DNA of 64,000 nt from positions 19,924 through 83,923 of the forward strand of contig JBBHKE010001892.1 of the NCBI GenBank assembly GCA_037447655.1, in the 5' to 3' direction. A program made the translations under genes and the position numbers. Shown one piece after another: positions 4,528 to 57,263 of the stretch; within the stretch, counting starts at the first letter, position 1, and each line of letters opens with the position of its first letter. Below the pieces are notes generated by a model, which was not told the DNA's origin, searched no databases, and saw only the letters and a program-made list of their open reading frames with translations. This DNA is from Zygnema cylindricum (taxonomy: Eukaryota; Streptophyta; Zygnematophyceae; Zygnematales; Zygnemataceae).

Positions 4528-5574
4528 TGAAACTCTGAGACCTCCATAAGTCCTCAGAGTGGACAGCTTCCAAGAAGCCTCTAGGATATCCTGACCCCTT
4601 TGTGTTTTAGCAAAATTAACTGCCGCCCTGGCAAACAAAAACCCTGACTACCTTCACCCCTGTGAAGGCAAGACTCCCCTGAGTTGATAGCAAAAAGAAT
4701 CTCTGAATTTGCTCCCCTGAGCAGTAAGTTATGGAGGGTCAAAGTTGACCTTTTGTACAGAAGCTCTCTGGGAGAGAGGGTCCTATCTTCTAATTTTTTC
4801 TAAGTCCTATCTCTCTCACAGACTCTATCTACTGATGTACGGAACCAATCAGATTTCAGTTCCGTACGTAAAAGTACAACTGCCGGTGTACTTTATGTAC
4901 GGATATTGTACGACATGGCCTAAATGTCCACACGTGGAGTATCCGGATTCGCTCCTTAAATCCTCGGAGATGCCGCACTCCAATGTCACATCGCCACGTG
5001 TCATCCGATGTGGCGCTGCCCACAAACCGCCGAATTCTCCTTCCGCGATCTCGGCGCAATTTCCGGCCGTCCGATTAAACTCGTTTTTGATCGTAGCCGT
5101 AATAAATACATGCGCGGTATTTGTTTCGCGTCCGAAATCAATGCGCGGTATTGATTTCATATCCGTACCGCAATTCGTACTTTTACAATTCCATATCTAT
5201 GTGTCCCGTAAATAGTTATAGTTAAATGAATTATCCTACGTGTACATGTATAAATAATTATCGTACTATATACTATGCATCAGTACCTCTAGACTTAACG
5301 GCTCAGGCTACCGGCTATCTCCTAGCTGTCGGCCGGCAGGTACCAGGATCAAATCCTGCCGCCGGCATATACCTTTTAGTAATTAATCCGTAGACTAATA
5401 TAAATTTCCCGTAAACCTGAGGATAGCTTAGGTAGCCATGGCTCTAGCTTCCTCTCCAATTTCTCAGTGACTGCGACAAGTTTGAGAGTTGGAGAGAGAA
5501 GTTAGAGGTAGACTGCCTCGGCTTCTTTGTTTCTATTTAGACCTAGAAAATACTTAAAACCATTAATTTCTACA
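4528..5574 (-). repeat. 3' LTR of copia A1
   Basis: Direct repeat of 9913-10960. Contains the antisense tRNA-like module (5292-5377), a cluster of seven GTAC sites with a CCAAT box (about 4834-4912), G-box-like CACGTG cores (4931-5005) and the palindrome AGCCATGGCT (5434-5443). The open stretch at 4745-5215 has a matching copy in the other LTR and is not a gene. Confidence 0.95.
5292..5377 (+). promoter_or_regulatory. Antisense tRNA-like Pol III module in A1 3' LTR
   Basis: Plus strand, opposite to the element's coding strand. A-box-like CGGCTCAGG at 5299-5307 (consensus TRGCNNAGYNGG), B-box-like GGATCAAATCC at 5346-5356 (consensus GGTTCRANTCC), then TTTT at 5374-5377. The T-arm-like part AGGTACCAGGATCAAATCC resembles the T arm of eukaryotic initiator tRNA-Met, including A at tRNA position 54. 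No full cloverleaf with a paired acceptor stem is evident. Confidence 0.6.
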
Positions 5575-5587
5575 CTCCCCTTATTTT

Positions 5588-6502
5588 CTAGTCAATCTTT
5601 AATTTCAGACCACACTTCTCCCTGCAGAAAATTAGCTTAGGGGAAGGCACAGGTTTGGTCATCATATCTGCTACCATCTCACTATCTGGCCTGTACTCTA
5701 AACTGATTATTTTGTTTTCTACTTTTTCTCTAACAAAGCTGAGTCTGATGTCCATGTGTTTGGCTTTAAAATGATGTTTAGGATTGGCAGAAATAGCGAT
5801 TGTTGCCTGATTATCACAAAATATTTTCTGCACACCACTCTTAAGGTGACCAAGCTCACCAAGCAAAGACTTGACCCACATCAATTCTTTTACAGCAGAG
5901 CAAGAGGCCATATACTCAGCCTCCATGGTGGACTGAGCAATAACCTTTTGCTGTTTGCTACTCCAACAGCAAGCCCCATCACCCACATATAATACATATC
6001 CAGAAGTGCATCTCCTCATCGGAGCATCACCATAACTGGCATCACTCCAAGTGGTGATGTCAGTATTCTCCCCACCCAAATGCAACCATAGATCCCTAGT
6101 TCCTATCAAGTATCTAAGGACTCTCTTAGCTGCCTCCCAATCCTTCTTAGTGGGAGCATTTAAACTTCTACTCAGCACTCCTACAGCTGCAGCTAAATCC
6201 GGCCGGGTACAATTCATAAAATAGATTAGACTTCCCACTACTTGCCTGTAAGGAATAGTCTGCATGAACTTCTGTTCATCAGGAGATAATACCTCGTCTA
6301 AGACTATGACTCCTTCTTCCTCACTCCCCTCACTTCCCTTCTTTAACTCCATTGGAGTTGTACAACTATTAGCTTTATCCATTTGAAATTTTTCAAGCAT
6401 GTTCCCTATTGCTTCCTTTTGAGTCAATCTTATAATTTTCCTTTTCCGGTCTCTCTCTACTTGAATTCCCAAAATATATCTTGCTTCTCCCATATCCTTC
6501 AT
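5588..6502 (-). pseudogene. A1 pol: RT C-terminal part and RNase H
   Basis: Open frame of 304 codons, 3' part of the A1 polyprotein. It begins at the RT connection (KDMGEARYILGIQVERD) and runs through the typical copia block TRPDLAAAVGVLSR. RNase H follows, with WSDASYGDAP, the Glu of STMEAEYMA and the Asp of FCDNQATIA as likely active-site acidic residues. It ends about 14 bp before the 3' LTR, separated by the polypurine tract. It is cut from the upstream RT by a frameshift in a homopolymer: seven A here (around 6541-6547) against six at the same place in A2. Confidence 0.9.
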
Positions 6503-6536
6503 TTCAAATCTCCCCTTAAGATCGGTTTTCAGTTTG

Positions 6537-6911
6537 TTAATTTTTTTCCATTGATTTACTTAAAACAAGCAAATCATCAACATAAATTGCAATAAATATA
6601 AGACCTTCCTCATCTTCGAAAACATAGATTGAGTGATCTGAGCTGATCCGAATATATCCCTGACCGGTAAGAAACTCATCAAGCTTCTTATTCCACTGTC
6701 GAGGCGCCTGTATCAAACCATAAAGAGATTTAATCAGCAGGCATACCTTACTCTCCTCTCCTTCCTCCACAAAACCTTCGGGTTGTCGCATGAAGATCTC
6801 CTCTTCCAATTCTCCATGCAAAAAGGCTGTCTTGATGTCCATCTGATGCACTTCCATGTCTTCCGCCATTGCTAAACTGAGAAGTATGCGGACGGAGGGA
6901 AATCTGACCAC
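6537..6911 (-). pseudogene. A1 pol: RT catalytic core
   Basis: Frame of 124 codons containing MDIKTAFLHGELEEEIFM (copia RT) and the catalytic motif IYVDDLLVLSKS with the YVDD box. It overlaps the upstream frame by about 40 bp and ends at a homopolymer frameshift. In A2 and B the same region is continuous, which shows these are breaks and not programmed junctions. Confidence 0.9.
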
Positions 6912-8767
6912 CGGGGCAAAGGTTTCCTCGTAGTCAATTCCTTCCTTTTTGTAAATCCCTTTGCCACTAATCTAGCCTTGTAGCGCTCGATTGTGTTATC
7001 TGGGTTCAGTTTTAGTTTGAAAACCCACTTACAACCGATTGGTTTTCGGTTAGGTGGACATTCCACCAGCTCCCAAGTATCGGCTGCCATGATTGAAGCC
7101 ATCTCCTCATTGATGGCTGTCTTCCATCGGTTTCTTTCTGGACAAGTCATCGCCTCTCCATAAGTTTGAGGTTCATCTTGATGAGATAGTTTAGTTACCT
7201 TGTTAATAACCTGTTTTTCTTGCAGTCTTTTGCTACTTCTCCTCCCCCCCTCAAAATCTGAGGCCGGAATAGATGGTTCTCGTGGATTCTTTCGAACAAA
7301 CTCGACTTCTCCCCTATCCCTTGATTCCGAATCAATTTCCACCACGTCTTCCGCTTCGAGTAGAGTTGTCACTGGAGTTTCCACAGCCGAGTCCTTTTCG
7401 GTCTGATTTGTACCTGCAAGAATGTCATCTTCTCTAAAACCTGGATAGTTAGGAAGCTCAAAGTCATCGGAATTTTCTGACTCAAATCTGATTTTTACTG
7501 ACTTCGTATATTTGAAGGGATCCACAGACTTTCCTTCATCCATAACTACTAGATGCTTTACTAAGATTATATCTTCCCTTTTTAGATCATAAACTCTATA
7601 TCCTTTAACATCTTCATCATATCCTAATAAGTATCCCGGTTTTCCTTTAGGATCTAGCTTCCAATTGGACCGATCAGTATCTAGACTGAACACTTGACTG
7701 CCGAAAACCTTTAAGTGAGATATGTCTGGTTTCCGGCCTGTCCATCTCTCATAAGGTGTTTGATCTTTTATAGCTGAAGTAAGAACTCTATTCTTGAGGT
7801 AATTAGCACAGTTCATAGCTTCTGCCCAAAACCTTTTTCCTATCTTTTTATCTGACAACATACTTCTAGCACTATCACTTAGTGTTCTATTTAACCTTTC
7901 AGCTACCCCATTCTGTTCCGGATTTTCTGGAACTGTCTTTTGGTGTTGAACCCCATCTTCCCTCAGAAAATCCTCAAACTGGTTAGAAGTATACTCTCCA
8001 CCATTGTCACTCCTTACTCTCTTGATTGGAGTTTCATGGAGTTTTTCGCTCCATGCTTTATATTGTCTAAAGCAATCCTCAGCTTCGGACTTGTTTTTCA
8101 AAAAATATACCCGGGAATACCGAGACCAATCATCAGTTATAGTCATCATAAATCTCTTCCCCCCCGGTGAGGGCACTTTAGCCGGTCCCCAAATATCTGT
8201 GTGTACTAGATCTAGATTTTTTTCTCCCTTATAGGTGGCTGATTTAGGAAAGGGTAATCTGTGTGCTTTACCTTGAGCACATCCACTACAATCACTTATA
8301 TCATCACTCTCACTGAACTGAATCCCTTCCACCACTCCCATCTTTTTCATCTCTCTTAACTTATCTAGATTCACATGCCCAAGCCTCTTATGCCACATCA
8401 TAATATCATGAACACCAGCGTAATAAAGTTTTTTCTTTTCATTACTTAAGATCAGCCTAAACATCCCATGGCTACCTTTCTCAGCAATGAAATAGACATC
8501 ATCCTCAAAACTAGCAGTAAAGACTCCTTCCCTAGTGCTAGTAAAAAAACCCTTATCATCTAATACTGATGTAGAGATAAGATTTTTGTTCAGCTCCAGA
8601 ATAAACAATACATCGGAGAATGTTAATATGGATGCCTTTCCTTCTACTAACACTTTCAGATCTACCGATCCTACAAGAGTAGTGGTGACTATCCTCCCAT
8701 CCCCGTACTCTATCTCTACGGTGGGAATCTTTCTTATCTTAGTGAACACACATGTGTATGGAGGCAC
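6872..8767 (-). pseudogene. A1 pol: pre-integrase, integrase and RT N-terminus
   Basis: Frame of 631 codons. Order: end of protease (TVEIEYGDGRIV), GAG-pre-integrase (MMWHKRLGHVNLDKL), HHCC zinc site (DCSGCAQGKAHRLPF), integrase core with catalytic Asp in VHTDIWGPA, Asp in RSDNGGEY and Glu in EQNGVAERLNRTL. Then the copia linker (TPYERWTGRKPDISHLKVFG), an acidic variable region, and RT start (WKTAINEEM, WVFKLKLNPDNTIERYKARL). It ends where a frameshift follows VAKGFT. It would encode cDNA insertion and the first part of reverse transcriptase. Confidence 0.92.
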
Positions 8768-9932
8768 CTGAATCTATGATCCAGCCTGCTTCACCTTTCA
8801 ATCCACCGTAAGCACATTTCTGCCTTCGTGGAATTTCGACCTCATTTTTCGCCTCCAACTCCTCATCCAAAAGGAGCTCATCGTCCTCGTCCTCGGATTC
8901 CGCCTCAAGTACCTGTGTGACAAGGGCCTTTTTCTTTCCTCTCGGGGTACCACCAGTCTGCCCCTCCTTTAACCGAAGCTCGGTTAGCTTATTGCACTCT
9001 GCCATATAGTGCCCCGGTTTCTTACAAAAATGACATAAACCTTTGGGAGCCCTTGGTTCGAATTCGTCGGCCTGTTTTTTCTGCTCCCTACCCCCATAGT
9101 TTCCGACCGGTTTTCGGGAATCCCTGTTCCTCCAATCAGTGGTTGTTGCCAAGGCTTGGCCACTCTTTCCTCCCCTTCGGATCTCGATTGTATTTTCTTG
9201 AACTAGAATCATCCCTACCACTGAGTTCCATATCCACCTTGAGTCAGGCAAGTCCTGCACACGGTAAACTATGTTCACGAACTCATCAGGTAACTTCATC
9301 AGTAAACAGTTAACCTTTTCTTTTTCACTAAAATCTTTTCCCGCACTGTGTAGCTCCATGAAGAGTGTAGCAAGCTCATTGCAAAAATCCAACATATTTC
9401 CCCCTTTATATACATACTCCTTAACTTTCTGATCAGCCAACTGTTGTTGCTGAATCGTACCACTTCGGTACATCTCTATGAGAGCCATCAAAAGATCGGA
9501 TGCCCTTTCTACCTGCAAATGAGGACATGCAAGTCCTTGAGTGAGATGGCGTAGGATGAAGTGCTTTGCCGCCATATTGTTGAAGTCCCAGGTTTCAGTA
9601 TCATTCTCCTCGCTCCTCGGAATAGGTGACATGAACGTCGAACCAGTTGCTATTGGTGTGGTCGTCTCCTTCTCCTTTCCTTTGTCCACCACCTCTCCTT
9701 CTTTTGTTTCCTCCGTTGAAGGTGAATCCTCTTTCCTGGTGAATCTGGTTCCTCCAAACCCTGGAGGAATTCCAAGACTTGATGGACGCCCCAACCGTCC
9801 ACTCACTATCCCCCAAAATCTTTTTTCGCATAGAGCTCCTATCATCATACTTTCCTAGTATATGAAGCCAGTTCCATTAAAGATTGGTACCCTAGAGGGT
9901 GGGCCCATAACCTGAAACTCTGAGACCTCCAT
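8739..9932 (-). pseudogene. A1 gag and protease
   Basis: Gag starts either at an ATG in the LTR (9932-9930) or at the ATG in the PBS (9908-9906); both are in one frame with MGPPSRVPIFNG. A TAG near 9856 breaks the N-terminus, leaving a 369-codon frame from 9848. It contains a capsid-like UBN2-type gag domain, then a CCHC zinc knuckle CHFCKKPGHYMAEC (Cys-X2-Cys-X4-His-X4-Cys). An acidic linker follows, then the aspartic protease motif WIIDSGASIHMC (catalytic Asp in DSGA). The frame shifts after this motif at about 8767-8739. Confidence 0.88.
9898..9912 (-). promoter_or_regulatory. Primer-binding site of A1, overlaps gag ATG
   Basis: GGTTATGGGCCCACC directly next to the 5' LTR end. It is a 15-nt perfect complement to the anticodon stem-loop of plant initiator tRNA-Met as I know that tRNA. 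The gag ATG lies inside it and pairs with the CAU anticodon. Confidence 0.8.
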
Positions 9933-10960
9933 AAGTCCTCAGAGTGGACAGCTTCCAAGAAGCCTCTAGGATAATCCTGACCCCTTTGTGTTTTATCAAA
10001 ATTAACTGCCGCCCTGGCAAACAAAAACCCTGACTACCTTCACCCGTGTGAAGGCAAGACTCCCCTGAGTTGATAGCAAAAAGAATCTCTGAATTTGCTC
10101 CCCTGAGCAGTAAGTTATGGAGGGTCAAAGTTGACCTTTTGTACAGAAGCTCTCTGGGAGAGAGGGTCCTATCTTCTAATTTTTTCTAAGTCCTATCTCT
10201 CTCACAGACTCTATCTACTGATGTACGGAACCAATCAGATTTCAGTTCCGTACGTAAAAGTACAACTGCCGGTGTACTTTATGTACGGATATTGTACGAC
10301 ATGGCCTAAATGTCCACACGTGGAGTATCCGGATTCGCTCCTTAAATCCTCGGAGATGCCGCACTCCAATGTCACATCGCCACGTGTCATCCGATGTGGC
10401 GCTGCCCACAAACCGTCGAATTCTCCTTCAGCGATCTCGGCGCAATTTCCGGCCGTCTGATTAAACTCGTTTTTGATCGTAGCCGTAATAAATACATGCG
10501 CGGTATTTGTTTCGTGTCCGAAATCAATGCGCGGTATTGATTTCATATCCGTACCGCAATTCGTACTTTTACAATTCCATATCTATGTGTCCCGTAAATA
10601 GTTATAGTTAAATGAATTATCCTACGTGTACATGTATAAATAATTATCGTACTATATACTATGCATCAGTACCTCTAGACTTAACGGCTCAGGCTACCGG
10701 CTATCTCCTAGCTGTCGGCCGGCAGGTACTAGGATCAAATCCTGCCGCCGGCATATACCTTTTAGTAATTAATCCGTAGACTAATATAAATTTCCCGTAA
10801 ACCTGAGGATAGCTTAGGTAGCCATGGCTCTAGCTTCCTCTCCAATTTCTCAGTGACTGCGACAAGTTTGAGAGTTGGAGAGAGAAGTTAGAGGTAGACT
10901 GCCTCGGCTTCTTTGTTTCTATTTAGACCTAGAAAATACTTCAAACCATTAATTTCTACA
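9913..10960 (-). repeat. 5' LTR of copia A1
   Basis: Direct repeat of 4528-5574 with about 0.8% difference. U5-side hairpins as in A2. The 3' terminal hairpin (stem ACTCTGAGGAC / GTCTCAGAGT on the minus strand) carries an ATG in its loop. Confidence 0.95.
10678..10763 (+). promoter_or_regulatory. Antisense tRNA-like module in A1 5' LTR
   Basis: Same arrangement as in the 3' LTR: A-box-like CGGCTCAGG (about 10685-10693), B box GGATCAAATCC at 10732-10742, TTTT at 10760-10763. One difference from the other LTR (GGTACTAGG for GGTACCAGG) sits just before the B box. Confidence 0.6.
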
Positions 10961-10965
10961 ACGAC

Positions 10966-11534
10966 ATGGCTTAGCAGGAGACGTTTGTCGCCCCTTAAAT
11001 TTTTCTGGTGTTCTCAGTGAAATCCGCAATGCAATGGGATTCTGCCATGTGTTATCCGATGATGTTATGTCCGAAAATCGCCAAAATGCCATTCCGTGAT
11101 GTCGGCTCAAATACGAGTTGTCCGATGTAGTCTGGCTTTTAATGTTATTTGTTCAAACAAATGTCAGGTACATTTTTTTCATGCGGGGTATCGTACAACT
11201 GGTTTTAACCAGTTAAATGATTAATGGTTCACTATCAACTTTAGTAGATATCAAACCCTATATAATTCAACAATTTTCTACGACTTACCAGTTAGAGTGA
11301 ATGGCTACGCCTAGCTCTGCCGGTCAAAGGTTTGAGTCCTACCAAACTCACCTTTTTGTGAAAGAGTGACTTTGTCACTCTTATTCCCCCATATCTTCCT
11401 ACCCCCATCTTCCCTTAGCCATGGCTTTATCTCTCTCTCCTAAGTCTCAAATGACTACAAGAAGTGTGGGGACTTCCAGAGTGAGATTAGGAGTCAGACC
11501 TAGAAAATACATTATAAATTCCTAATTTCTACAA
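10966..11534 (-). mobile_element. LTR of copia family E, U3-side half
   Basis: Continues LTR E from 4527 after removal of A1 and one TSD copy (the join reads GTGTACGACATGGC, the motif also found in A LTRs). It starts TGTAG on the minus strand at 11534. It contains AGCCATGGCT (11417-11426) and the tRNA-like module at 11288-11357. Confidence 0.7.
11288..11357 (+). promoter_or_regulatory. Antisense tRNA-like module in LTR E
   Basis: B-box GGTTTGAGTCC at about 11329-11339 matches GGTTCRANTCC at 10 of 11 positions. It sits inside a T-arm-like hairpin, and TTTTT follows at 11353-11357. The A box (TAGAGTGAATGG) is weak. Confidence 0.5.
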
Positions 11535-11567: not shown

Positions 11568-12760
11568 TGTTGGAATTCAAGTATTTTCTAGGTCTAGAGA
11601 TTGCAAAATAAAAAGCAAAATAGTAGATATTGACAGCCTGCCTCTAACTCCTCCTCAAGTCCCCACACTTGTCGCAGTCACTGAAGACTGGAGAAGGAGT
11701 TAGCCATGGCTGCCTGTGCTGTCTAGAAGGAGACAGACAGTTGTTTTATAGGGGGTTTTTCTCTAAATGGTAGTTTTGACAGGGCCAGGATTTGATCCTG
11801 GTACCTGCCACTTGTCTCAACCGCAACAGCCGGTAGTCTTAACCAGATAGTCTAAATTGTATTAGATATTACGGGGTATGATGTTTATTTAAACAGTTAC
11901 AATAATACTAATTCATTTAACTAGAACTATATGCATAGAGCATAGAAACAGTTATGTAAAGTACGACGTACGGTACTACTAGAAATAAATACCGCGCAGT
12001 TTGTTTGACGCCGGAAAGAATACCGCGCAGTTATTTATGACGGCCACGATTGAAAACCAAAATTGATTGAACGACCGCGAAGGATGCCGAGATCGCGGCG
12101 TACGATTTTGGCGGTTTGCGATCACCGCCACATTGCGTGACACGTGGTAACACTACGTTGGATTGCGGCAACTCCGAAGATTACGGGAACAAATCCGGAT
12201 ATGACACGTGTCGACATTTTGGCCATGTCGTACAATGGCCGTACAGAAAGTACACCGGCACCTGTACTTTTCTGTACGACACAGTAATTTGATTGGTGCC
12301 GTACTTCAGTAGATAGAGTTTTAGAGAGGGAATAGGACTTAGATAAATTTTGGATAGGCACTGCCTCTCCCAGAGAGCACCCTGTATAAATGGCAAACTT
12401 TGGGCAGCCATAACTATCAATTTACTTGACCATTTTCAGTGATTCTTTTTGCTGCGGACTCAGGGGAGTCCAGGCTACACAGGGGTGTAGTTGGTCAGAG
12501 TTTTTGTTTGCCAGGGTGGCTTTATTTCTAAGGGAAAGTCAAAGTGGGTGAATGTGTCCAAATCTCATATTCTAACTTTGCATTCTGTGGTGGAACTGAG
12601 CACACAGAAAGTGTTATTTCACAGGGGTGAATCTATATTGGGTTTCTGACTGTCAAGGGGTCAGTCACTTGGGTTTATATTAACTTGGAGTCGGCACTAT
12701 CTAGATTAGCTTCTTTTGGATCTGCATACTCTGAGGGCCAATGGAGGTCTCAGAGTTTCA
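11568..12760 (+). mobile_element. Solo LTR C1 (copia family C), TSD CATAT
   Basis: TG...CA segment of 1193 bp flanked by CATAT at 11563-11567 and 12761-12765, with no internal region. Ends in ATGGAGGTCTCAGAGTTTCA like family A. Carries hairpins GACTC-AGGG-GAGTC (12457-12470) and CTACAC-AGGG-GTGTAG (12475-12490), GTAC clusters, and AGCCATGGCT (11702-11711). Same length as solo LTR C2 at 35024-36216. The open stretches at 12122-12420 are inside the LTR and are not genes. Confidence 0.9.
11764..11850 (-). promoter_or_regulatory. Antisense tRNA-like module in LTR C1
   Basis: Minus strand: A-box-like TGGTTAAG, then a perfect T-arm CCAGG-ATCAAAT-CCTGG (about 11785-11801). The terminator run is reduced to ATTT. 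The 3' half resembles initiator tRNA-Met. Confidence 0.6.
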
Positions 12761-13795: not shown

Positions 13796-14404
13796 TGTAG
13801 AAATTAATGGTCTTTTAAAGTATTTTCTAGGTCTAAATAGAAATATAGAATGAAGCCGAGGCAGTCTACCTCTAACTTCTCTCTCCAACTCTCAAACTTG
13901 TCGCAGTCACTGAGAAATTGGAGAGGAAACTAGAGCCATGGCTACCTAGGCTACCCTGATGTTTACGGGAAATATATATTAGGGGTTTATTTTATAAAAA
14001 GATATGTGCTGGCCACAGATATTGAACCAGGCACCTACCGGACGACAAGTTGCCGGTAGACGGTAACCTTAGCCGTTAAGTCTTGATGTAGTGTTATGTA
14101 CTATATGGTTTGATAATTAATTAAACATTAATACGTAGGATAATCCATTTAACTAAAATAGTTTACGGGATACATAGAACCGGTAGTGTAAAAGTACGGA
14201 TTACAATACAGATAAGAAATCAATACCGCGCATTGATTTCTTAAGCGAAACGAATACCGCGCATGTATTTATTACGGCTACGATTAAATGTGAATTTAAT
14301 CGGACGACCGAAATTAACGCCGAGATCGCGGAAGAGGATTTCGGCGGTTTGTGGTCATCGCCACATCAGATGACACGTGGCGGAATGACATTGGATCGCG
14401 GCAT
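13796..14404 (+). mobile_element. 5' part of a copia family-A-like LTR, truncated
   Basis: Begins TGTAGAAATTAATGG like A LTRs and follows them through the tRNA-like module, GCGCGGTATT-type repeats and the CACGTGGC G-box region. It stops at GGATCGCGGCAT, where the gypsy inverted repeat begins. The U5 half is missing. A tRNA-like module on the minus strand (about 13995-14082) has B-box-like GGTTCAATATC and a TTTTT run. Confidence 0.8.
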
Positions 14405-14408
14405 TGTT

Positions 14409-14597
14409 GTGCATGTGTCAAATAACATGAAGATGCATGCAATATCATCAGTTGTGCTCAACTTAAACTCAAATGATAGCGAGATATCGGAAATGAAATA
14501 AATTATAAAAGTAAAAATGGGTAAATACAACAACAAACAAGGTGGAAGAAAAAGAAAGGTCAACGACTTAGCTGGTTATGGTTAGGTCGGTTTATCC
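14409..14597 (-). repeat. Left arm of 189-bp inverted repeat (gypsy LTR start)
   Basis: Reverse complement of 16765-16953, same length with no indel and only scattered substitutions. The right arm directly follows a polypurine tract, so the repeat is the 5' end of the gypsy LTR. Here it lies inverted and joins directly to RT coding sequence at 14594-14605. Confidence 0.85.
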
Positions 14598-21126: not shown

Positions 21127-22186
21127 TGTAGAAATAAATGGTACATTTTTAGTATTTTCTAGGTCTAAATAGAAATATAGAAAGAAGCCGAGGCAGTCTA
21201 CCTCTAACTTCTCTCTCCAAACTCTCAAACTTGTCGCAGTCACTGAGAAATTGGAGAGGGAGCTAGAGCCATGGCTACCTAGGCTATCCAGAGATTTACG
21301 CGAAATTTATATAAGTTAAAGGGTTTATTTTATCTAAAATATATGTGCCGGCCGCAGGATTTGATCCCTGCACCTACCGGCCGGCAGACAGCAGATAGCC
21401 GGTAGCCTTAGCCGTTAAGTCTAGGACTAGTGTTACGTAGTATATAGTTTGATATTTATTTTAACATGTCTGCGTATGATTAATCATTTAACTGTAATTT
21501 ATTACGGGATACATAGATCCGGTAATGTGTAAAGTACGGATTACGGTACGGACAGAAAATCAATACCGCGCATTTATTTCTTAATTGAAACGAATGCCGC
21601 GCAAGTATTTATTACGGCTATGATTAAATCCTGATTTAATCAGACGGCCGGAATTAGCGCAGAGATCACGGAAGAAGATTTCGGCGGTTTAAGGCCATCG
21701 CCACATCGGATGACACGTGACAAAATTCCATTGGATCGTGGAATCTCCGGAGATTATAACACCTAATCCGAATATGACATGTGTCAACATTTAGGCCATG
21801 TCGTACAATGTCCGTACCTAAAGTACACCGGCAGCTGTACTTTTGCGTACGGAACTCAATTCTGATTAGTTCCGTACATCAGTAGATAGAGTCTGTGAGA
21901 GAGATAGGACTTAGAAAAATTAGGAGATAGGACCCTCTCTCCCAGAGAGCTTCCGTACAATAGGTCAACTTTGACCCTCCATAACTTACTGCTCAGGAGA
22001 GCAAATTCAAAGATTCTTTTTGCTATCGACGCAGGGGAGTCTTACCTTCACAAGAGTGTAGGTGGTCAGGGTTTTTGTCTGCCAGGGTGGCAGTTATTTT
22101 TGCTGGAACACAAAGGGGTCAGGATTATCCTAGAGGCTTCTTGGAAGCTGTCTACTCTGAGGACTTATGGAGGTCTCAGAGTTTTA
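21127..22186 (+). mobile_element. Copia family-A-like 5' LTR F
   Basis: TGTAGAAATAAATGG start and ...GGTCTCAGAGTTTTA end (terminal CA mutated to TA). It is followed by PBS GGTTATGGGCCCAC (22187-22200), after which element sequence stops. So it is a 5' LTR of a truncated element. In this copy the LTR-internal gag frame is closed by the TAG made at the LTR end. The open stretch at 21971-22396 is mostly LTR and not a gene. Confidence 0.88.
21337..21421 (-). promoter_or_regulatory. Antisense tRNA-like module in LTR F
   Basis: A-box-like GGCTAAGG (21406-21413 region), T-arm-like GCAGG...CCTGC enclosing GGATCAAATCC (21357-21367), and TTTT at the distal end (ATATATTTTAG on the minus strand). Confidence 0.6.
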
Positions 22187-22204
22187 GGTTATGGGCCCAC
22201 AGTA

Positions 22205-25433: not shown

Positions 25434-26483
25434 TGTAGAAACAAATTTTTTTTTAGTATTTTCTAGGTCTGAAAAGAAATATAGAAGTCGAGGCAGTCTA
25501 TCTCTAACTTCTCTCTCCAACTCTCAAACTTGTCGCAGTCACTGAGAAATCGGAGAGGAAGCTAGAGCCATGGCTACCTTGGCTATACTGAGGTTTACGG
25601 GAATTTTTATATTAGGGTTTATTTATTTATTTAAAAGGAATGTGCCGGCGGCAGGATTTGATCCTTGTACCTGCCGGCCGGCAGTCAGGAAATAGCCGGT
25701 AGCCTTAGCCGTTAAGTCTAGAGGTAGTGTTACGCAGTATATAGTTTGATATTTATTTAAACATGTATACGTTCGATAAACCATTTAACTGTAATGAATT
25801 ACGGGATACATAGATCCAGTAATACGTAATGTACGACTTACGGTACGGACATAAATCAGTACCGCGCATTTTGTTTCATAAATGAAACAAATACCGCGCA
25901 TGTATTTATTACGGCCACGATTAAAGCCGAATTTAATCGGACGGCCGGGATTAGCGCCGAGATCGCGGAGGAAGATTTCGGCGGTTTGTGGCCATCGCCA
26001 CATCAGATGACGCGTGGCGAAATTCCGTTGGATTGTGGAATCTCCGGAGATTATGGCACCGAATCCGGATTTGACATGTGTCGACATTTTGGACATGTTG
26101 TACAATGTCCGTACATAAAGTACACCGGCAGCTGTACTTTTGCGTACGGAACTCAATTCTGATTGGTTCCGTACATCAGTAGATAGAGTCTGTGAGAGAG
26201 ATAGGACTTAGAAAAATTAGAAGATAGGACCCCCTCTCCCAGAGAGCTTCTGTACAAAAGGTCAACTTTGACCATCCATAACTTACTGCTCAGGGGAGCA
26301 AATTCAGAGATTCTTTTTGCAACCGACTCAGGGGAGTCTTGTCTTTACAGGGGTGGAGGTGGTCAGGGTTTTTGTCTGCCAGGGTGGCAGTTATTTTTGC
26401 TGGAACACAAAGGGGTCAGGATTATCCTAGAGGCTTCTTGGAAGCTATCTACTCTGAGGACTTATGGAGGTCTCAGAGTTTCA
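25434..26483 (+). repeat. 5' LTR of A2
   Basis: Pair of 28860-29910. AGCCATGGCT at 25567-25576. Antisense tRNA-like module at 25633-25718 (minus): GGCTAAGG A box, GGATCAAATCC B box, TTTT. The frame at 25785-26156 lies wholly within the LTR and has a matching one in the other LTR. Confidence 0.95.
25633..25718 (-). promoter_or_regulatory. Antisense tRNA-like module in A2 5' LTR
   Basis: CGGCTAAGG A-box-like, palindromic CTGCCGGCCGGCAG in the variable region, B-box GGATCAAATCC, and CCTTTTAA downstream. Confidence 0.6.
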
Positions 26484-26498
26484 GGTTATGGGCCCACC
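26448..26498 (+). promoter_or_regulatory. A2 terminal hairpin with ATG, and PBS
   Basis: Stem ACTCTGAGGAC / GTCTCAGAGT with the loop ATG at 26464. It is followed at 26484-26498 by PBS GGTTATGGGCCCACC containing a second in-frame ATG. Confidence 0.7.
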
Positions 26499-27128
26499 CT
26501 CTAGGGTACCAATCTTTAATGGAACTAGCTTCATATACTGGGAAAGTATGATGATAGGAGCTCTATGCGAAAAAAGGTTTTGGGGGATAGTGAGTGGACG
26601 GTTGGGGCGTCCATCAAGTCTTAGAATTCCTCCAGGGTTTGGAGGAACCAGATTCACCAGGAAAGAGGACCCACCTTCAACGGAGGAAACAAAAGAAGGA
26701 GAGGTGGTGGACAAAGGAAAGGAGAAGGAGACGACCACACCAATAGCAACTGGTTCGACATTCATGTCACCTATTCCGAGGAACGAGGAGAATGATACTG
26801 AAACCTATCCGATCTTTGGATGGCTCTCATAGAGATGTACCGAAGTGGTACGATTCAGCAACAACAGTTGGCTGATCAAAAAGTTAAGAAGTATGTATAC
26901 AAAGGGGGAAATATGTTGGATTTTTGCAATGAGCTTGCTACACTCTTCATGGAGCTACACAGTGCGGGAAAAGATTTCAGTGAAAAAGAAAAGGTTAACT
27001 GTTTACTGATGAAGTTACTTGATGAGTTCGTAAACATAGTTTACCGTGTGCAGGACTTGCCTAACTCAAGGTGGATATGGAACTCAGTGGCAGGGATGAT
27101 TCTCGTTCAAGAGAATACGATGGAGAAG
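26464..27128 (+). pseudogene. A2 gag, deleted
   Basis: Frame MEVSEFQVMGPPSRVPIFNG begins in the LTR and runs through the PBS. It ends near 26830 because a deletion of about 90 bp (relative to A1) shifts the frame after NDTET. The capsid part resumes at 26820 in another frame (IEMYRSGTIQQQQLADQKVK, KVNCLLMKLLDEFVNIVYRV). It then hits a second, large deletion at about 27120 within QENT. The zinc knuckle and protease that follow in A1 are gone. Confidence 0.9.
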
Positions 27129-28846
27129 CCGAGTTTGTTCGAAAGAATCCACGAGAACCATCTATTCTGGCCTCAAATTTTGAGGGGGGGAGGAGAAGTA
27201 GCAAAAGACTGCAAGAAAAACAGGTTAATAACAAGGTAACTAAACTATCTCATCAAGATGAACCTCAAACTTATGGAGAGGCGATGACTTGTCCAGAAAG
27301 AAACCGGTGGAAGACAGCCATCAATGAGGAGATGGCTTCAATCATGGCAGCTGATACTTGGGAGCTGGTGGATTGTCCACCGAACCGAAAACCAATCGGT
27401 TGTAAGTGGGTTTTCAAATTAAAACTGAACCCAGATAACACAATCGAACGCTACAAGGCCAGATTAGTGGTAAAGGGATTTACACAAAAGGAAGGAATTG
27501 ACTACGAGGAAACCTTTGCCCCGGTGGTCAGATTTCCCTCCGTCCGCATACTTCTCAGTTTAGCAGCGGCGGAAGACATGGAAGTGCATCACATGGACAT
27601 CAAGACAGCCTTTTTGCATGGAGAATTGGAAGAGGAGATCTTCATGCGACAACCCGAAGGTTTTGTGGAGGAAGGAGAGGAGAGTAAGGTATGCCGGCTG
27701 ATTAAATCTCTTTATGGTTTGAAACAGGCACCTCGACAATGGAATAAGAAGCTTGATGAGTTTCTTACCGGTCTGGGATATATTCGGATCAGCTCAGATC
27801 ACTCAATCTATGTTTTCGAAGATGAGGAAGGTTTGATATTTATTGCAATTTATGTTGATGATTTGCTTGTATTAAGTAAATCAATGGAAAAAATTAACAA
27901 ACTGAAAACCGATCTTAAGGGGAGATTTGAAATGAAGGATATGGGAGAAGCAAGATATATTTTGGGAATTCAAGTAGAGAGAGACCGAAAAAGGAAAATT
28001 ATAAGATTGACTCAAAAAGAAGCAATAGGGAACATGCTTGAAAAATTTCAAATGGATAAAGCTAATAGTTGTACAACTCCAATGGAGTTGAAGAAGGGAA
28101 GTGAGGGGAGTGAGGAAGAAGGAGTCATAGTCTTAGACGAGGAATTATCTCCTGATGAACAGAAGTTCATGCAGACTATTCCTTACAGGCAAGTAGTGGG
28201 AAGTCTAATCTATTTTATGAATTGTACCCGGCCGGATTTAGCTGCAGCTGTAGGAGTGCTGAGTAGAAGTCTAAATGCTCCCACTAAGAAGGATTGGGAG
28301 GCAGCTAAGAGAGTCCTTAGATATTTGGTAGGAACTAGAGATCTATGGTTGCATTTGGGTGGGGAGAATACTGACATCACTACTTGGAGTGATGCCAGTT
28401 ATGGTGATGCTCCAATGAGGAGATGTACTTCTGGATATGTATTATATGTGGGTGATGGGGCTTGCTGTTGGAGTAGCAAACAGCAAAAGGTTATTGCTCA
28501 GTCCACCATGGAGGCTGAGTATATGGCCTCTTGCTCTGGTGTAAAAGAATTGATGTGGGTCAAGTCTTTGCTTGGTGAGCTTCGTCACCTTAAGAGTGGT
28601 GTGCAGAAAATATTTTGTGATAATCAGGCAACAATCGCTATTTCTGCCAATCCTAAATACCATTTTAAAGCCAAACACATGGACATCAGACTCAACTTTG
28701 TTAGAGAGAAAGTAGAAAACAAAATAATCACTTTAGAGTACAGACTAGATAGTGAAATGGTAGTAGATATGATGACCAAACCTGTGCCTTCCCCTAAGCT
28801 CATTTTTTGCAGGGAGAAGTGTGGTCTGAAATTAAAGATTGACTAG
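27071..28846 (+). CDS. A2 RT-RNase H, open frame after deletion
   Basis: 591 open codons; the first ~17 codons are gag DNA read out of frame. True pol sequence starts at EFVRKNPREPSILASNFEGG. Then copia RT: WKTAINEEMASIMAADTWEL, WVFKLKLNPDNTIERYKARL, HMDIKTAFLHGELEEEIFM, catalytic IYVDDLLVLSKS. RNase H: TTWSDASYGDAP, STMEAEYMASC, FCDNQATIAISANP. It ends at TAG just before the polypurine tract. The frame differs from gag, so it would need re-initiation. Whether anything is made from it is unknown, but it lacks the stops and shifts seen in A1. Confidence 0.88.
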   Translation: MDMELSGRDDSRSREYDGEAEFVRKNPREPSILASNFEGGRRSSKRLQEKQVNNKVTKLSHQDEPQTYGEAMTCPERNRWKTAINEEMASIMAADTWELVDCPPNRKPIGCKWVFKLKLNPDNTIERYKARLVVKGFTQKEGIDYEETFAPVVRFPSVRILLSLAAAEDMEVHHMDIKTAFLHGELEEEIFMRQPEGFVEEGEESKVCRLIKSLYGLKQAPRQWNKKLDEFLTGLGYIRISSDHSIYVFEDEEGLIFIAIYVDDLLVLSKSMEKINKLKTDLKGRFEMKDMGEARYILGIQVERDRKRKIIRLTQKEAIGNMLEKFQMDKANSCTTPMELKKGSEGSEEEGVIVLDEELSPDEQKFMQTIPYRQVVGSLIYFMNCTRPDLAAAVGVLSRSLNAPTKKDWEAAKRVLRYLVGTRDLWLHLGGENTDITTWSDASYGDAPMRRCTSGYVLYVGDGACCWSSKQQKVIAQSTMEAEYMASCSGVKELMWVKSLLGELRHLKSGVQKIFCDNQATIAISANPKYHFKAKHMDIRLNFVREKVENKIITLEYRLDSEMVVDMMTKPVPSPKLIFCREKCGLKLKID

Positions 28847-28859
28847 AAAATAAGGGGAG

Positions 28860-29910
28860 TGTAGAAACTAGTGTTTTTTTAGTATTTTCTAGGTCTGAGA
28901 AGAAATATAGAAGTCGAGGCAGTCTATCTCTAACTTCTCTCTCCAACTCTCAAACTTGTCGCAGTCACTAAGAAATCGGAGAGGAAGCTAGAGCCATGGC
29001 TACCTTGGCTATACTGAGGTTTACGGGAATTTTTATATTAGGGTTTATTTATTTATTTAAAAAGGAATGTGCCGGCGGCAGGATTTGATCCTTGTACCTG
29101 CCGGCCGGCAGTCAGGAAATAGCCGGTAGACTTAGTCGTTATGTCTAGAGGTAGTGTTACGCAGTATATAGTTTGATATTTATTTAAACATGTATACGTT
29201 CCATAAACCATTTAACTGTAATGAATTACGGGATACATAGATCCAGTAATACGTAATGTACGACTTACGGTACGGACATAAATCAGTACCGCGCATTTTG
29301 TTTCATAAATGAAACAAATACCGCGCATGTATTTATTACGGCCACGATTAAATCCGAATTTAATCGGACGGCCAGGATTAGCGTCGAGATCGCGAAGGAA
29401 GATTTCGGCGGTTTGTGGCCATCGCCACATCAGATGACGCGTGGCGAAATTCCGTTGGATTGTGGAATCTCCGGAGATTATGGCACCGAATCCGGATTTG
29501 ACATGTGTCGACATTTAGGCCATGTCGTACAATATCCGTACATAAAGTACACCGGCAGTTGTACTTTTACGTACGGAACTGAAATCTGATTGGTTCCGTA
29601 CATCAGTAGATAGAGTCTGTGAGAGAGATAGGACTTAGAAAAAATTAGAAGATATGACCCTCTCTCCCAGAGAGCTTCTGTACAAAAGGTCAACTTTGAC
29701 CCTCCATAACTTACTGCTCAGGGGAGCAAATTCAGAGATTCTTTTTGCAACCGACTCAGGGGAGTCTTCCTTTACAGGGGTGGAGGTGGTCAAGGTTTTT
29801 GTCTGCCAGGGTGGCAGTTATTTTTGCTGGAACACAAAGGGGTCAGGATTATCCTAGAGGCTTCTTGGAAGCTGTCTACTCTGAGGACTTATGGAGGTCT
29901 CAGAGTTTCA
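28860..29910 (+). repeat. 3' LTR of A2
   Basis: Pair of 25434-26483. U5 hairpins: TGCTC-AGGG-GAGCA (29715-29728), GACTC-AGGG-GAGTC (29753-29766), CTTTAC-AGGG-GTGGAG with G-U pairs (29770-29785), CTGCC-AGGGT-GGCAG (29803-29817), terminal hairpin 29878-29906. The patch at about 29505-29590 matches A1 better than the partner LTR. tRNA-like module at 29058-29145 (minus). Confidence 0.95.
29058..29145 (-). promoter_or_regulatory. Antisense tRNA-like module in A2 3' LTR
   Basis: As in the 5' LTR; the A box is changed (GACTAAGTC) while B box GGATCAAATCC and TTTT are kept. Confidence 0.55.
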
Positions 29911-30294: not shown

Positions 30295-31255
30295 GTGAAA
30301 TTTTGTGGGCACCACAGCCTCCCACAGAATGCACACCTTCTTCTCCACTATTAGATACACCCAACAACCCAATACGCTTTAGACTATTACAGCCACCCTG
30401 GCAAGAAATGACTTTGATCAATCTTGGCCCTATGAGGACAAGACTCCTGTGAGTCCAACGCAAAAATAATATCCAATTTTGCTTCTTGAGCAGTTATTTG
30501 TGGCTATTCAAAGACAACAGATATATACAGATGGCCTCTGGGAGAGAGGACTTCAAAAGTACTCTAAATCTTCTAAGTTTTAGTCTGTCTACTCTCAACG
30601 CCTATCTAATAAACCCTCCGCCAACGGGAGGACTGCAATGTACACTAAAGTACTATGCAATATGCACCTAGCCGCCATAGAATGTGTACGGCACCTGTAC
30701 GACACCACTTAGGAGAAGTTATTTGTCATGTCCAACACCATCGTTTTGTCTCCTTCTTATCCAGCTTGAAATGAGATGCTGCCACGTGTCGATTAATGGT
30801 GCTTTTGGCACACGCGGCCAAAAGAACCATTCCGGTCCATCGACGCTCAAGCGAGCCGTCTGGTTCTATTTTCTTATCAAATGTCATCCGCTCATGGTTG
30901 ACGGCGCGCAGAATGTTTGTTGCAGCCGTCGTACTATTTCCATTCGATGTGTTCCTGTACGTCTAATATTGTTAGATGAATTAGGCCCCTTCTAACGTGT
31001 TTTATTATTTTACCATACTTTGTGTCTGTGACGACTCTTCAATGAATTACCGGATAAGGCGGTCGGCTACAAGTGATTCTGTATGACCTAAGACCAAATC
31101 TAAGCCAGGTCAGTCCTTTTGACTGGTCTATTTATCTCCGTTTCCTTGGTTTTGAAGGTAATGGACAACCATGGCTTCCCTTACTTTTGTCTACCCGGCA
31201 TTAGTCTTGAGAACTAGCTGTATGATAGGAATTACCTTTTTCATGTTTTCAACAT
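30295..31255 (-). mobile_element. Diverged copia LTR remnant G
   Basis: Minus-oriented. It keeps landmarks of the family in order: terminal hairpin-like ATTCTGTGGG/CCCACAAAAT, GCC-AGGGT-GGC, GACTC-ACAG-GAGTC, GTAC sites, a CCACGTGTC G-box, tRNA-like module and CCATGGCT. Ends are approximate and no TSD found. The open frame at 30684-30995 lies inside. Confidence 0.6.
31051..31120 (+). promoter_or_regulatory. Degenerate tRNA-like module in LTR G
   Basis: A-box-like CGGATAAGGCGG, weak B box AGACCAAATCT, TTTT after it. Same place as in the other LTRs. Confidence 0.4.
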
Positions 31256-35023: not shown

Positions 35024-36216
35024 TGAAACTCTGAGACCTCCATTGGCCCTCAGAGTATGCAGATCCAAAAGAAGCTAATCTAGATAGTGCCGACTCCAAG
35101 TTAATATAAACCCAAGTGAATGACCCCTTGACAGTCAGAACCCCAATATAGATTCACCCCTGTGAAATAACACTTTCTGTGTGCTCAGTTCCACCACAGA
35201 ATGCAAAGTTAGAATATGAGATTTGGACACATTCACCCACTTTGACTTTCCCTTAGAAATACAGCCACCCTGGCAGACAAAAATTCTGACCGACTACACC
35301 CCTGTGTAGCCTAGACTCCCCTGAGTCCGCAGCAAAAAGAATCACTGAAAATGGTCAAGTAAATTGATAGTTATGGCTGGCCAAAGTTTGCCATTTATAC
35401 AGGGTGCTCTCTTAGAGAGAGGGTCCTATCTGCCAAATTTTTCTAAGTCCTATCTCCCTCTAAAACTCTATCTACTGAAGTACGGCACGAATTAAAACAC
35501 TGTGTCGTACAGAAAAGTACAGGTGCCGGTGTACTTTATGTACGGCCATATTACGACATTGCCAAAATGTTGACACGTGTCATATCCGGATTCGTTTCCG
35601 TAATCCCCGGAGTTGCCGCAATCCAATGTAGTGATACCACGTGTCACTCAATGTGGCGGTGATCGCAAACCGCCAAAATCGTACGCCGCGATCTCGGCAT
35701 CGTTCGCGGCCGTCCGATCAAATTTGGATTTCAATCGTGGCCGTCATAAATACGTGCGCGGTATTCTTTCCGGCGTCAAACAAACTGCGCGGTATTTATT
35801 TCGTATCCGTACCGTACGTCGTACTTTACACAACTGTTTCTATGCAGTATGCATATAGTTCTAGTTAAATGAATTAGTGTTATTGTAACTGTTCAAATAA
35901 ATATCATACCCCGTCATATCTAATACAATTTAGACTATTTGGATAAGACTACCGGCTATTGCGGTTGTGACAAATGGCAGGTACCAGGATCAAATCCTGG
36001 CTCTATCAAAACTACCTTTTAGAGAAAACCCCCTATAAAACAACTGTCTGTCTCCCTCTAGACAGCACAGGCAGCCATGGCTAACTCCTCCTCCAGTCTT
36101 CAGTGACTGCAACAAGTGTGGGGACTTGAGGAGGAGTTAGAGGTAGGCTGTCAATATCTACTATTTTGCTTTTTATTTTGCAATCTCTAGACCTAGAAAA
36201 TACTTGAATTCCAACT
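35024..36216 (-). mobile_element. Solo LTR C2 (copia family C), TSD GTTTG
   Basis: 1193 bp, same length as C1, inverse orientation, flanked by GTTTG (35019-35023, 36217-36221). Terminal base mutated (TG...CA became AG at one end, read as ...CCAACT on plus). AGCCATGGCT at 36073-36082. Confidence 0.9.
35935..36020 (+). promoter_or_regulatory. Antisense tRNA-like module in C2
   Basis: Best tRNA match in the window. A-box-like TTGGATAAG, T arm CCAGG-ATCAAAT-CCTGG, then GCTCTATCA, which follows the 3' half of initiator tRNA-Met (T arm and acceptor) closely, and TTTT at 36017-36020. Confidence 0.65.
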
Positions 36217-51941: not shown

Positions 51942-52832
51942 TGTTGAAAAGAGGTAATTAATAGTTCACTTCCCTATTTTAGTTTCGCTTTAAAGAAAGA
52001 GAGTGAGGACCAAAGGCGCGCCATGGCTGCTGCCATATTTAGAAAGTGGCAGTTTTTGCAGTTTAGGGTATTTTGGCTAAAATGATGCCTAGGTCTAGAT
52101 TTGCACCTATGGCCTCTAAATTATTTATAGCCTTACGCCTTAACCATTAAGGCGTTACGAAACGATACACGTGACGGGTTTCATAAATATATAAACATTA
52201 ACGCAACAGCTAATTAACAGCAGACTAACCAAAAGGAGCAATTTCTGCATGTACGCGAATCTGAACCGTGTAAAATATGTTTTGATCGGACGGCCGGCAT
52301 TATAGCCGCCACGCGAAGTGAGCTTTTTGGCGGCATACGGATATAGCGTCACGGGGTGCCACGTGGCGCCACATTATTTGATACCGGAGAAGATGGGAGG
52401 AGGAACCATGGCTTCCGATATGACAGGTGTCACCTTGTAGACCTTGTCGTACAATGGTTGTACAATAAGTACATCGCCCATTGTACCTTCTTGTACTTTA
52501 TAGTGTTCCTATTGGACTAGGGTTTAATAGTAGGTAGTCGTGAGTAGGCAGACCGAGACTTAGTAATATTTAGGTACTTCTCTCTCTAAGAGAGCTTGTA
52601 ACTATAAAGGTCATCTTTGACCAGCCATAACTTACTGCTCGGGTGAGCAAATTCAGTAATTCTTTTTGCGTTTGACTCAGGGGAGTCTTTTCCTCACAAG
52701 TGTGAGAGTGGTCAGAATATTTGTGTGCCTGGGTGGCACTTATTCAGCGGGAAAGTAGAAGGGGCAAATATTATCCTAGAGGCTTTACATAGGCTGCTCA
52801 TTCTGTGGGTCAATGGAGACCACAGAATTTCA
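51942..52832 (+). repeat. 5' LTR of B
   Basis: Hairpins TGCTC-GGGT-GAGCA (52636-52649), GACTC-AGGG-GAGTC (52674-52687), CTCAC-AAGT-GTGAG (52693-52706), GTGCC-TGGGT-GGCAC (52725-52739), terminal hairpin 52800-52828 with ATG at 52813. GCCATGGC palindrome 52020-52027. Confidence 0.95.
52079..52160 (-). promoter_or_regulatory. Antisense tRNA-like module in B 5' LTR
   Basis: A-box-like TGGTTAAGGCG inside hairpin GCCTTAA-TGG-TTAAGGC. B box damaged (GGTGCAAATC). TTTT at the 52079-52082 complement. Confidence 0.55.
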
Positions 52833-54120
52833 CGTTATGGGCCCACCCTCTAGGGTGCCAATATTTGATGGATCAGACTTTCTTAATTGGGAAATGATGA
52901 TGGAGGGAGAACTATTTGAGAAGCATCTATGGGGCATAGTGTCTGGACAAATTCGATGCCCACCACCACCTGGGTTTGGAGGGACACGTTTTTCTGGCAC
53001 CTCCGCCTCTACAGTTGGTAGAACAGCTGCCACCATCACCGAGGATGAAGATGAGGAAGGAGAAGAGATTGTCATGGAAGGAGAAAAAGAAGGAGTTGCA
53101 ACTCAAGTAACACCATTGCCGAAGGCGATACCGGCAGCAGCACCACCAGCAACAACGACAAGGGTTCAGACCGAAAGATCATAGTATGAAAAGTGGAACT
53201 ACAAAGACAAGGTTGCTAAGCTCTTAATTCTTAAAAGTGTAGCAAAGGGCATTGCCATTCCCCTTATGCATGTCAAATCGTCATCTCAGATTTGGATATC
53301 ACTAGTTAACAAATATAAGAGTGGATCATTGCAGCAGCAACAGTTGGCAGAAAATAAGATTGCAGCTTATACTTATAAGGGAGGAAGTATGGATAATTAT
53401 TGAAATGATTTAGGAGCATTGTTTGGAGAGTTAGAGAGTGCAGGTAACTCATGGTCTGAGAGACAAAGAGTGAACACATTAATGATGAAACTACCTGAAG
53501 AGTATGAGAATATCATTAACCGATTGCAGGACATAGGAGATAGCAATTGGAATTGGGATGACACTGTGGGAATGATTTTAGTGAAAGAAAGCACCATAGA
53601 GCTTAGGAGAGGGAGTCCAAGTGTTCAAGCATTGTCTGCAGGAGCTGATTGGCGGAAGCGTGATGAGGGGAGAGGGAAAGATCCTTATCGAAACTTTGGT
53701 GGAAGAGGACAAGGAGGTGGCAGATTTGATAGACAGGGGAGAGGAACTTCTCGAGGAGGATTATGTCACTTCTGCAAGAAACCGGGACACTATATGGCAG
53801 ATTGTGTCAGACTTGCAGATCTTCGACTGAAAGATGGTCAAGGAACCTCAAAGGACGGAGGAAAGAAAAAGGCTTTCCTGACTCAAGTTCTTGATGAGGA
53901 AGTGGAAGAAAAAACTGAACCTGAAGAGGAGCTTGAGGAGCTTCTCCTTAATCCGAAAAACACTGAAAAACATGTCGACATTCCACGGAGACAAAAGTGT
54001 GCTTTTGGAGGTAAGAGGGATCCACCCGAGGATGGGTGGATCATAGACTCAGGGGCTTCAATGCATATGTGCAAAGATAAGCGGTGGTTCACTAAACTGA
54101 GAAAGATCCCAACAGTTTAG
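52813..54120 (+). pseudogene. B gag and protease, two internal stops
   Basis: The frame begins METTEFHVMGPPSRVPIFDG: the first ATG is in the LTR, the second (52837) in the PBS. Stops at 53182 (TAG) and 53401 (TGA) interrupt an otherwise same-frame gag with capsid block (QRVNTLMMKLPEEYENIINR), Arg/Gly-rich segment, CCHC zinc knuckle CHFCKKPGHYMADC, acidic linker, and protease motif WIIDSGASMHMC. It ends at TAG 54118. Gag would coat the RNA; protease would cut the polyprotein. Confidence 0.9.
52833..52847 (+). promoter_or_regulatory. Primer-binding site of B, overlaps gag ATG
   Basis: CGTTATGGGCCCACC; 14 of 15 nt fit the anticodon arm of plant initiator tRNA-Met. ATG at 52837. Confidence 0.75.
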
Positions 54121-57250: not shown

Positions 57251-57263
57251 GAATTAAGGGGAG

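Follow-up and report, generated by a model that had tools for sequence, protein, structure and literature searches.

Each of the 12 copia LTR copies found to extend into the region concerned in the window (the whole stretch of DNA analyzed here, 64,000 nucleotides from Zygnema cylindricum) carries, on the strand opposite to coding and at one homologous position in U3, a module in which an A-box-like stretch is followed by a B-box-like stretch poor in G. A run of at least four T's lies 13 to 19 nt past the B box in 11 of the 12 (background, 0.12 per site), the exception being solo LTR C1, which has TTT rather than TTTT. The earlier note on this DNA had described such an antisense module in every copia LTR reaching the region, with a T-run downstream in nearly all, and this observation is confirmed in the main. 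We hypothesize, at a probability of about one half, that the module represents the layout of a tRNA-derived type 2 Pol III promoter, which was captured once in antisense orientation in an ancestral U3 and perhaps still binds TFIIIC or yields a short antisense RNA.

Copia elements and LTR copies in the window

Copia-type LTR elements abound in the window, with the Pfam domains Retrotran_gag_2, gag_pre-integrs, rve, and RVT_2; the domain scan covered element A2 in three pieces and element B from its SH3/RVT_2 ORF only. These two elements, of 6.2 to 6.4 kb each, hold gag, integrase, and RVT_2 coding of the copia type, and rve precedes RVT_2 in one A2 ORF. The B polymerase ORF has 7,811 relatives, the best 120 of which, as listed, are 34 to 47% identical to it, and flowering plants make up most of the named relatives among these 120. 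The A2 gag ORF (8739-9854) gave a Pfam copia gag match and yet had no relative at an E value of ≤1e-3 among 2,796 protein-search candidates.

LTR copies were collected by self-comparison of the window and with an LTR profile, and those reaching the module region belong to A2 (two), A1 (two), F, C1, C2, the fragment starting at 13796, B (two), E, and G. The elements and LTRs to which the text refers are as follows.

4528..10960, minus strand: copia element A2; LTRs 4528-5574 and 9913-10960, 99.1% identical; TSD ACGAC; coding pieces 5588-9854
25434..29910, plus strand: element A1; LTRs 97% identical; TSD TTTCT; internally shortened; one long ORF, 27065-28846
51942..58154, plus strand: copia element B; LTRs 98.7% identical; TSD ATTGG; coding 53404-57250
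21127-22186: LTR F
11533-10961, resuming at 4527-4138: LTR E, split by the A2 insertion (TSD ACGAC)
13796-14404: LTR fragment
31120-30296: LTR G

Direct repeats of 5 bp flank A2, A1, B, and the solo LTRs C1 and C2 (those of C were read by eye). Since A2 is inserted in LTR E, E is the older of the two. The LTRs of A2 and B are about 0.9 to 1.05 kb long and those of C about 1.2 kb. A-type and C-type LTRs are some 71 to 73% identical across 920 to 970 bp, and B, E, and G are more diverged, so that the description of these families in the earlier note as differing over most of the LTR applies to B, E, and G but not to A and C.

Layout of the antisense module

The 12 modules are listed below by coordinates, strand, and principal motifs.

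5292..5377, plus strand: module in the A2 3′ LTR (element coded on the minus strand); GGCTCAG 5300-5306; B box GGATCAAATCC 5346-5356; TTTT 5374-5377
10670..10770, plus strand: module in the A2 5′ LTR; B box 10732-10742
25627..25726, minus strand: module in the A1 5′ LTR; B box 25654-25664
29054..29153, minus strand: module in the A1 3′ LTR; B box 29081-29091; differs from the 5′ LTR by three substitutions in and next to the A-box-like stretch
21329..21426, minus strand: module in LTR F; B box 21357-21367
11758..11856, minus strand: module in solo LTR C1; B box 11788-11798; assumed tRNAi-Met nt 42-69 matched 24/28 at 11780-11807
35929..36027, plus strand: module in solo LTR C2; B box 35987-35997; assumed tRNAi-Met nt 42-68 matched 24/27 at 35978-36004
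13991..14090, minus strand: module in the LTR fragment 13796-14404; B box GGTTCAATATC
52073..52160, minus strand: module in the B 5′ LTR (B1); A box TGGTTAAGGCG; B box GGTGCAAATCT
57395..57482, minus strand: module in the B 3′ LTR (B2); A box TGGTTAAGGCG; B box GGTTCAAATCT; top tRNA-panel HMM match in the window, E 1.7e-5
11280..11362, plus strand: module in LTR E; B box GGTTTGAGTCC at 11329-11339; TTTTT 13 nt past the B box
31044..31120, plus strand: weak module in LTR G; B-box-like AGACCAAATCT

The exact sequence GGATCAAATCC occurs seven times in the window, each time inside a module. The distance from A box to B box is 36 to 56 nt, depending on the A site chosen; in most copies of A and C, the wide scan scores highest for a different A-box site that precedes the B box by 56 nt, and the A box of these two families is therefore ambiguous. 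Single copies decay, as seen from the three substitutions in the A-box region of one A1 LTR and from a damaged B box in one B LTR.

Two further observations concern element B. Five of the 12 differences between its LTRs fall within 19 nt (52104-52122 and 57426-57444) that comprise the module linker and B box (scan-statistic P of about 0.00065), possibly reflecting gene conversion or a mutation hot spot. Its A box, inspected by eye, lies inside a perfect 9-bp inverted repeat, ACGCCTTAA-TGG-TTAAGGCGT, at 57457-57477.

Box scan and chance expectation

Both strands of the window (127,980 positions) were scanned for an A box, a B box, and TTTT at an A-B spacing of 33 to 60, using an assumed Pol III box consensus. 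Modules of families A, B, C, and E took the top seven positions and eight of the top nine; as for the other four, A1b and C1 ranked 10, the fragment ranked 17, and G, which had already been described as weak, ranked 222. With these settings and a bonus for TTTT, seven positions scored at least 14.5, all of them modules, compared with a mean of 1.12 and a maximum of 4 in 40 dinucleotide shuffles. When the bonus was dropped, 8 of the 10 positions scoring at least 13.0 were modules (shuffle mean, 6.22; maximum, 15). A narrower spacing of 36 to 50 gave 14 positions of at least 13.5 with the bonus, including 9 modules (shuffles, 8.03; maximum, 18), and 37 positions of at least 12.0 without it, including 10 modules (shuffles, 34.67; maximum, 45). 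Over the four settings, B2 always ranked 1, E ranked 2 to 4, B1 ranked 3 to 11, and C1 ranked 10, 1, 29, and 4.

The outcome of the scan thus leans on its settings, and the counts of high scores lie within the shuffle range once the bonus is dropped or the spacing narrowed. Because single scores of this kind arise by chance, the real evidence is the recurrence of the module in diverged families, always at the same homologous site of the LTR, LTR copies within one family being nonindependent observations. The motif GGWTCAAATCC, at no more than one mismatch, has 12 matches in the window against 3.18 expected.

Likeness to tRNA

A panel of 19 assumed plant tRNA sequences was used for a profile HMM and for ungapped comparison. 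In the HMM search of the window, modules held ranks 1 to 9 of 17 matches, all on the antisense strand and most of them individually weak: E values were 1.7e-5 for B2, 0.0089 for C1, 0.05 for C2, and 0.083 to 7.1 for six other modules, with the first nonmodule match at 8.3. Both halves of the tRNA model were matched, in order, only in B2, C1, and C2, the matches of A1, A2, F, and B1 spanning only half of it, and the modules of the fragment, E, and G were missed in this search. The best ungapped panel score was 10 to 21 on the module strand versus 8 to 10 on the other strand.

The identity of the tRNA that is resembled differs among families. In C2, 24 of 27 nt match assumed tRNAi-Met (nt 42 to 68), with A54 present, and in C1, 24 of 28 (nt 42 to 69); the A2 and A1 modules match it over nt 42 to 63. 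The reference in these comparisons is what we take to be the plant initiator tRNA-Met sequence. The B modules match the tRNA-Ser of the panel over nt 16 to 39 at 20 of 24 positions, the T half of B2 matches tRNA-Leu, and the E and G modules resemble no panel tRNA convincingly. Of the likeness to initiator tRNA proposed in the earlier note, only that of families A and C is therefore supported; the more specific claim that C2 follows the initiator through the T arm and acceptor is borne out over nt 42 to 68, although the match ends before the acceptor does.

The order of the tRNA sequence appears to survive in the modules, but the tRNA fold hardly does. By eye, a T stem in tRNA register is complete in both C copies, and 3 to 4 of 5 pairs are present in the others inspected. 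ARAGORN at default settings reported no tRNA in the window, and Rfam found none in the window or in two module stretches. Relaxed to 50% and applied to 10 of the 12 modules, ARAGORN returned seven poor candidates (31 to 35) in 5 of the 10 pieces, with no common identity; four were on the module strand (F, C2, the fragment, and B2) and three on the other, and one was a tRNA-Ser-like fold over the B2 module. Given these mixed candidates and the negative default and Rfam results, an intact tRNA gene in the module is rejected.

Primer-binding site

A primer-binding site (PBS) was located next to one LTR in each of four cases.

9898..9912, minus strand: PBS of A2, GGTTATGGGCCCACC, 15/15; complement of assumed tRNAi-Met nt 25-39
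26484..26498, plus strand: PBS of A1, 15/15
22187..22201, plus strand: PBS of F, 14/15
52833..52847, plus strand: PBS of B, 14/15

The sequence GGTTATGGGCCCACC adjoins these LTRs directly, twice exactly and twice with one mismatch, and at up to two mismatches it has four matches in the window against 0.04 expected. Relying on an assumed tRNA sequence, we take it to be the complement of plant tRNAi-Met nt 25 to 39, and as this segment is internal to the tRNA, we infer half-tRNA priming. The earlier note had also considered the module a possible mimic of the primer tRNA. We reject this, since the segment that pairs with the PBS is absent from the modules: the good window matches to it (14 to 15 nt) are the PBS sites themselves, and none lies in a module.

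Conservation and position of the module

Conservation was expressed as mean identity between five families (A, B, C, E, and G) within the initial 600 positions of the LTR. Compared with an LTR mean of 0.41, identity was 0.68 in the B box, 0.60 in the A block, and 0.48 in the module as a whole, versus 0.21 in the linker, 0.29 in the 5′ flank, and 0.50 in the 3′ flank. Blocks of the same length are equally high in 5.6% of cases for the B box, 14% for the A block, and 20% for the whole module, and four other U3 blocks are more conserved (0.75 to 0.86), e.g., GCCATGGCT (0.86) and CACGTGGC (0.80). The aligned T-run columns are poorly conserved (0.35), the T-run recurring at shifting positions. The greater conservation of the boxes compared with linker and 5′ flank is suggestive but not decisive. 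Identity in the boxes is above that of the linker and the LTR mean, but four U3 blocks exceed them and the module reaches only the top 20%; the argument that its retention suggests function is unsupported in that form, as conservation does not single the module out.

In the LTR alignment, the module is collinear in all families, between shared LTR blocks, which makes a separate SINE insertion in each family unlikely, and no SINE ends, TSDs, or tail were seen by eye at the modules there. Independent insertions being disfavored by this collinearity, the module was probably acquired in one ancient event.

The most conserved U3 blocks between families, at 5433-5443 and 4993-5003, contain GCCATGGCT and the G-box-like TGACACGTGGC; these are probably Pol II elements.

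Origin of the module and alternative explanations

We observe a tRNA-like order of boxes, on one strand and at a homologous position, and suggest a single origin by capture, in which a tRNA gene or tRNA-headed retroposon would have entered, antisense, the U3 of a copia element ancestral to all these half-tRNA-primed families. It would have left behind a type 2 Pol III promoter layout without a recognizable tRNA fold. In support, the top scan positions and the top nine HMM matches are modules, and the boxes (0.68 and 0.60) stand out from the linker (0.21). Counting against it, the HMM misses the fragment, E, and G, of which G fails the box scan too; the A box of A and C is ambiguous; conservation is modest; shuffles match the box scores when the TTTT bonus is left out and the spacing narrowed; and the tRNA panel and box consensus were assumed. 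The Pol III unit proposed in the earlier note accordingly stands as a predicted promoter only, in that the order of A box, B box, and T-run, the antisense strand, and the homologous place all agree with it, although no tRNA is recognized. If used, the promoter might produce a short antisense U3 RNA of roughly 75 to 110 nt, judging from box and T-run spacing; alternatively, TFIIIC binding alone might condition LTR chromatin. Putative transcription would leave the element when started in the 5′ LTR and head for the element body when started in the 3′ LTR, and because it runs antisense and would meet its own T-run first, the module cannot make genomic RNA.

A possible, though rather doubtful, alternative is a nonfunctional relic, i.e., a tRNA pseudogene or SINE head drifting in the ancestral LTR, with families too young for the boxes to have been erased. 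Variation of the boxes by family, the damaged B box in one B LTR, and conservation only moderately above the LTR average (the 5.6, 14, and 20% given above) are what such drift would leave, whereas between A, B, C, E, and G the boxes have outlasted the linker and 5′ flank, and the best composite window scores come from differently diverged families (A/C, B, and E). We regard it as highly improbable that the module is an ordinary Pol II or structural U3 motif with a chance resemblance to Pol III boxes; candidates for such a motif would be the inverted repeat ACGCCTTAA-TGG-TTAAGGCGT of B and, in A and C, the palindromic GGAT..ATCC core. In its favor are the greater conservation of other U3 blocks such as GCCATGGCT and CACGTGGC and the behavior of shuffled sequence, in which a score of 14.5 turns up roughly once in 64 kb and lower thresholds are reached no less often than in the window. 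However, modules also come first in the tRNA HMM search, which draws on more sequence than the boxes, and in B2, C1, and C2 the two halves of the model are matched in the right order; the layout of boxes and T-run is common to all five families.

For families A and C only, the U3 of the genomic RNA might instead pair with the T arm of tRNAi-Met as a second primer-binding segment, in the manner of the Ty3 3′ PBS, a reading that we consider unlikely. The PBS (nt 25 to 39) and the U3 segment (nt 42 to 63/69) are adjacent and nonoverlapping on the tRNA, and the best window matches to assumed tRNAi-Met are the C and A modules plus the PBS sites. Predicted duplexes with the 3′ half of the tRNA reach −47.7 and −46.2 kcal/mol in C, −39.4 and −32.8 in A2, and −32.8 in A1; the 12 lowest-energy tiles of 18,276 in the window all lie in C, A2, and A1 modules, and for C the next panel tRNA reaches only −31.1 and −27.7. 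The two parts of the Ty3 3′ PBS are given as −14.8 and −20.5, obtained by a different method, in PMC11381356. On the other hand, B shares the PBS without comparable complementarity (best tile, −22.9; next elsewhere in the LTR, about −21.6), F is weak (−25.3), E pairs barely, and G and the fragment do not pair at the module. In three of the four A1/A2 copies, the tRNA-Ser and tRNA-Ile of the panel pair more strongly than the initiator does, the initiator is outside the four best panel tRNAs in F, the tRNA sequences were assumed ones, and the inferred primer is the 5′ half, without a T arm. It would be very improbable, too, that in A and C one tRNAi-Met bridges both RNA ends (PBS, nt 25 to 39; U3, nt 42 to 63/69) of a half-tRNA-primed copia while the other strand carries a Pol III-type promoter.

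Relation to known systems

Helenus (TRIMp3; Kojima 2024) is a clear precedent for tRNA-like LTRs: its LTRs hold a tRNA-like sequence with box A and box B, mostly without a functional tRNA, and the Pol III promoter function is described as unproven (PMC10886601). According to the same source, most fungal families have a Copia-like PBS on the anticodon loop, dominantly of tRNA-iMet, fungal Helenus is thought to be mobilized by Copia elements, TSDs are of 5 bp in fungi and plants, with one plant family (Selaginella), and partial likeness to a tRNA is noted for “not a few LTRs” (PMC10886601). The LTRs analyzed here are like those of Helenus in having a tRNA-like stretch that includes both boxes (9 of 12 modules by HMM, most weakly; G is weak by HMM and box scan). 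In contrast, Helenus is nonautonomous and 311 to 1263 bp long, the longest LTR given being 323 bp (PMC10886601), and A2 and B, as full-size copia elements with gag-pol and a length of 6.2 to 6.4 kb, are not Helenus elements. The module here is also antisense and has its own T-run, whereas the accessible text of PMC10886601 does not give the orientation in Helenus. The remark in the earlier note that no tRNA equivalent was known in copia LTRs therefore overstated the novelty, Helenus TRIMs having come before and the fungal ones perhaps being moved by Copia (PMC10886601). Among the literature surveyed by titles and abstract openings, PMC10886601 alone dealt with tRNA-like sequences inside LTRs in this sense; PMC3286476 concerns tRNA copies at a PBS, a different matter.

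The presence of a Pol III small-RNA gene sequence within the LTR is reminiscent of Cassandra, in which, however, the sequence is 5S derived and the Pol III promoter makes element RNA (PMC10886601); unlike Cassandra LTRs, the window gave no 5S rRNA match in the Rfam scan. In Ty3, the 3′ PBS part lies within U3, where it engages the tRNA through its T and D arms (PMC5371799, PMC11381356). The predicted complementarity of U3 to the tRNAi-Met T arm in families A and C resembles this bipartite PBS, although priming in Ty3 starts at the 3′ end of an intact tRNA (PMC5371799, PMC11381356) and the elements here are copia with an anticodon-arm PBS, of which B, E, and G are without the complementarity. 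Because the presumed primer is initiator tRNA-Met, a Ty3-like second tRNA contact in A and C is directly testable. Osser, Bryco, and part of Gymco-II are Copia with a PBS complementary to half-molecule tRNA-Met (PMC6317226), and the GGTTATGGGCCCACC PBS (15/15 in A2 and A1 and 14/15 in F and B) is similar; the accessible text of PMC6317226 does not mention a tRNA-like LTR module in those lineages.

The module pattern had no matches in viral_contigs. The PBS 14-mer matched 46 stretches, in which tblastn brought up no relative of the B polymerase ORF at E ≤ 1 (lowest E across all 46 records, 1.1, for 21 residues), and a protein-based search for relatives elsewhere yielded 21 stretches, none of which was confirmed. 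In the literature found, tRNA-like LTRs have so far been described in short nonautonomous elements, so that the LTRs of full-size copia families, if they have kept an antisense module of Pol III type, would be a new context for such sequences. The module could then account for antisense RNAs from LTRs or for the binding of Pol III factors at retrotransposons.

Two other kinds of repeat-related sequence were seen in the window. The stretches 14586-15185 and 18578-19450 have RT_RNaseH and RVT_1 domains, unlike the copia-type RVT_2, and a stretch of about 510 bp at 41983-42492 matches its own reverse complement at about 73% and is perhaps a foldback element.
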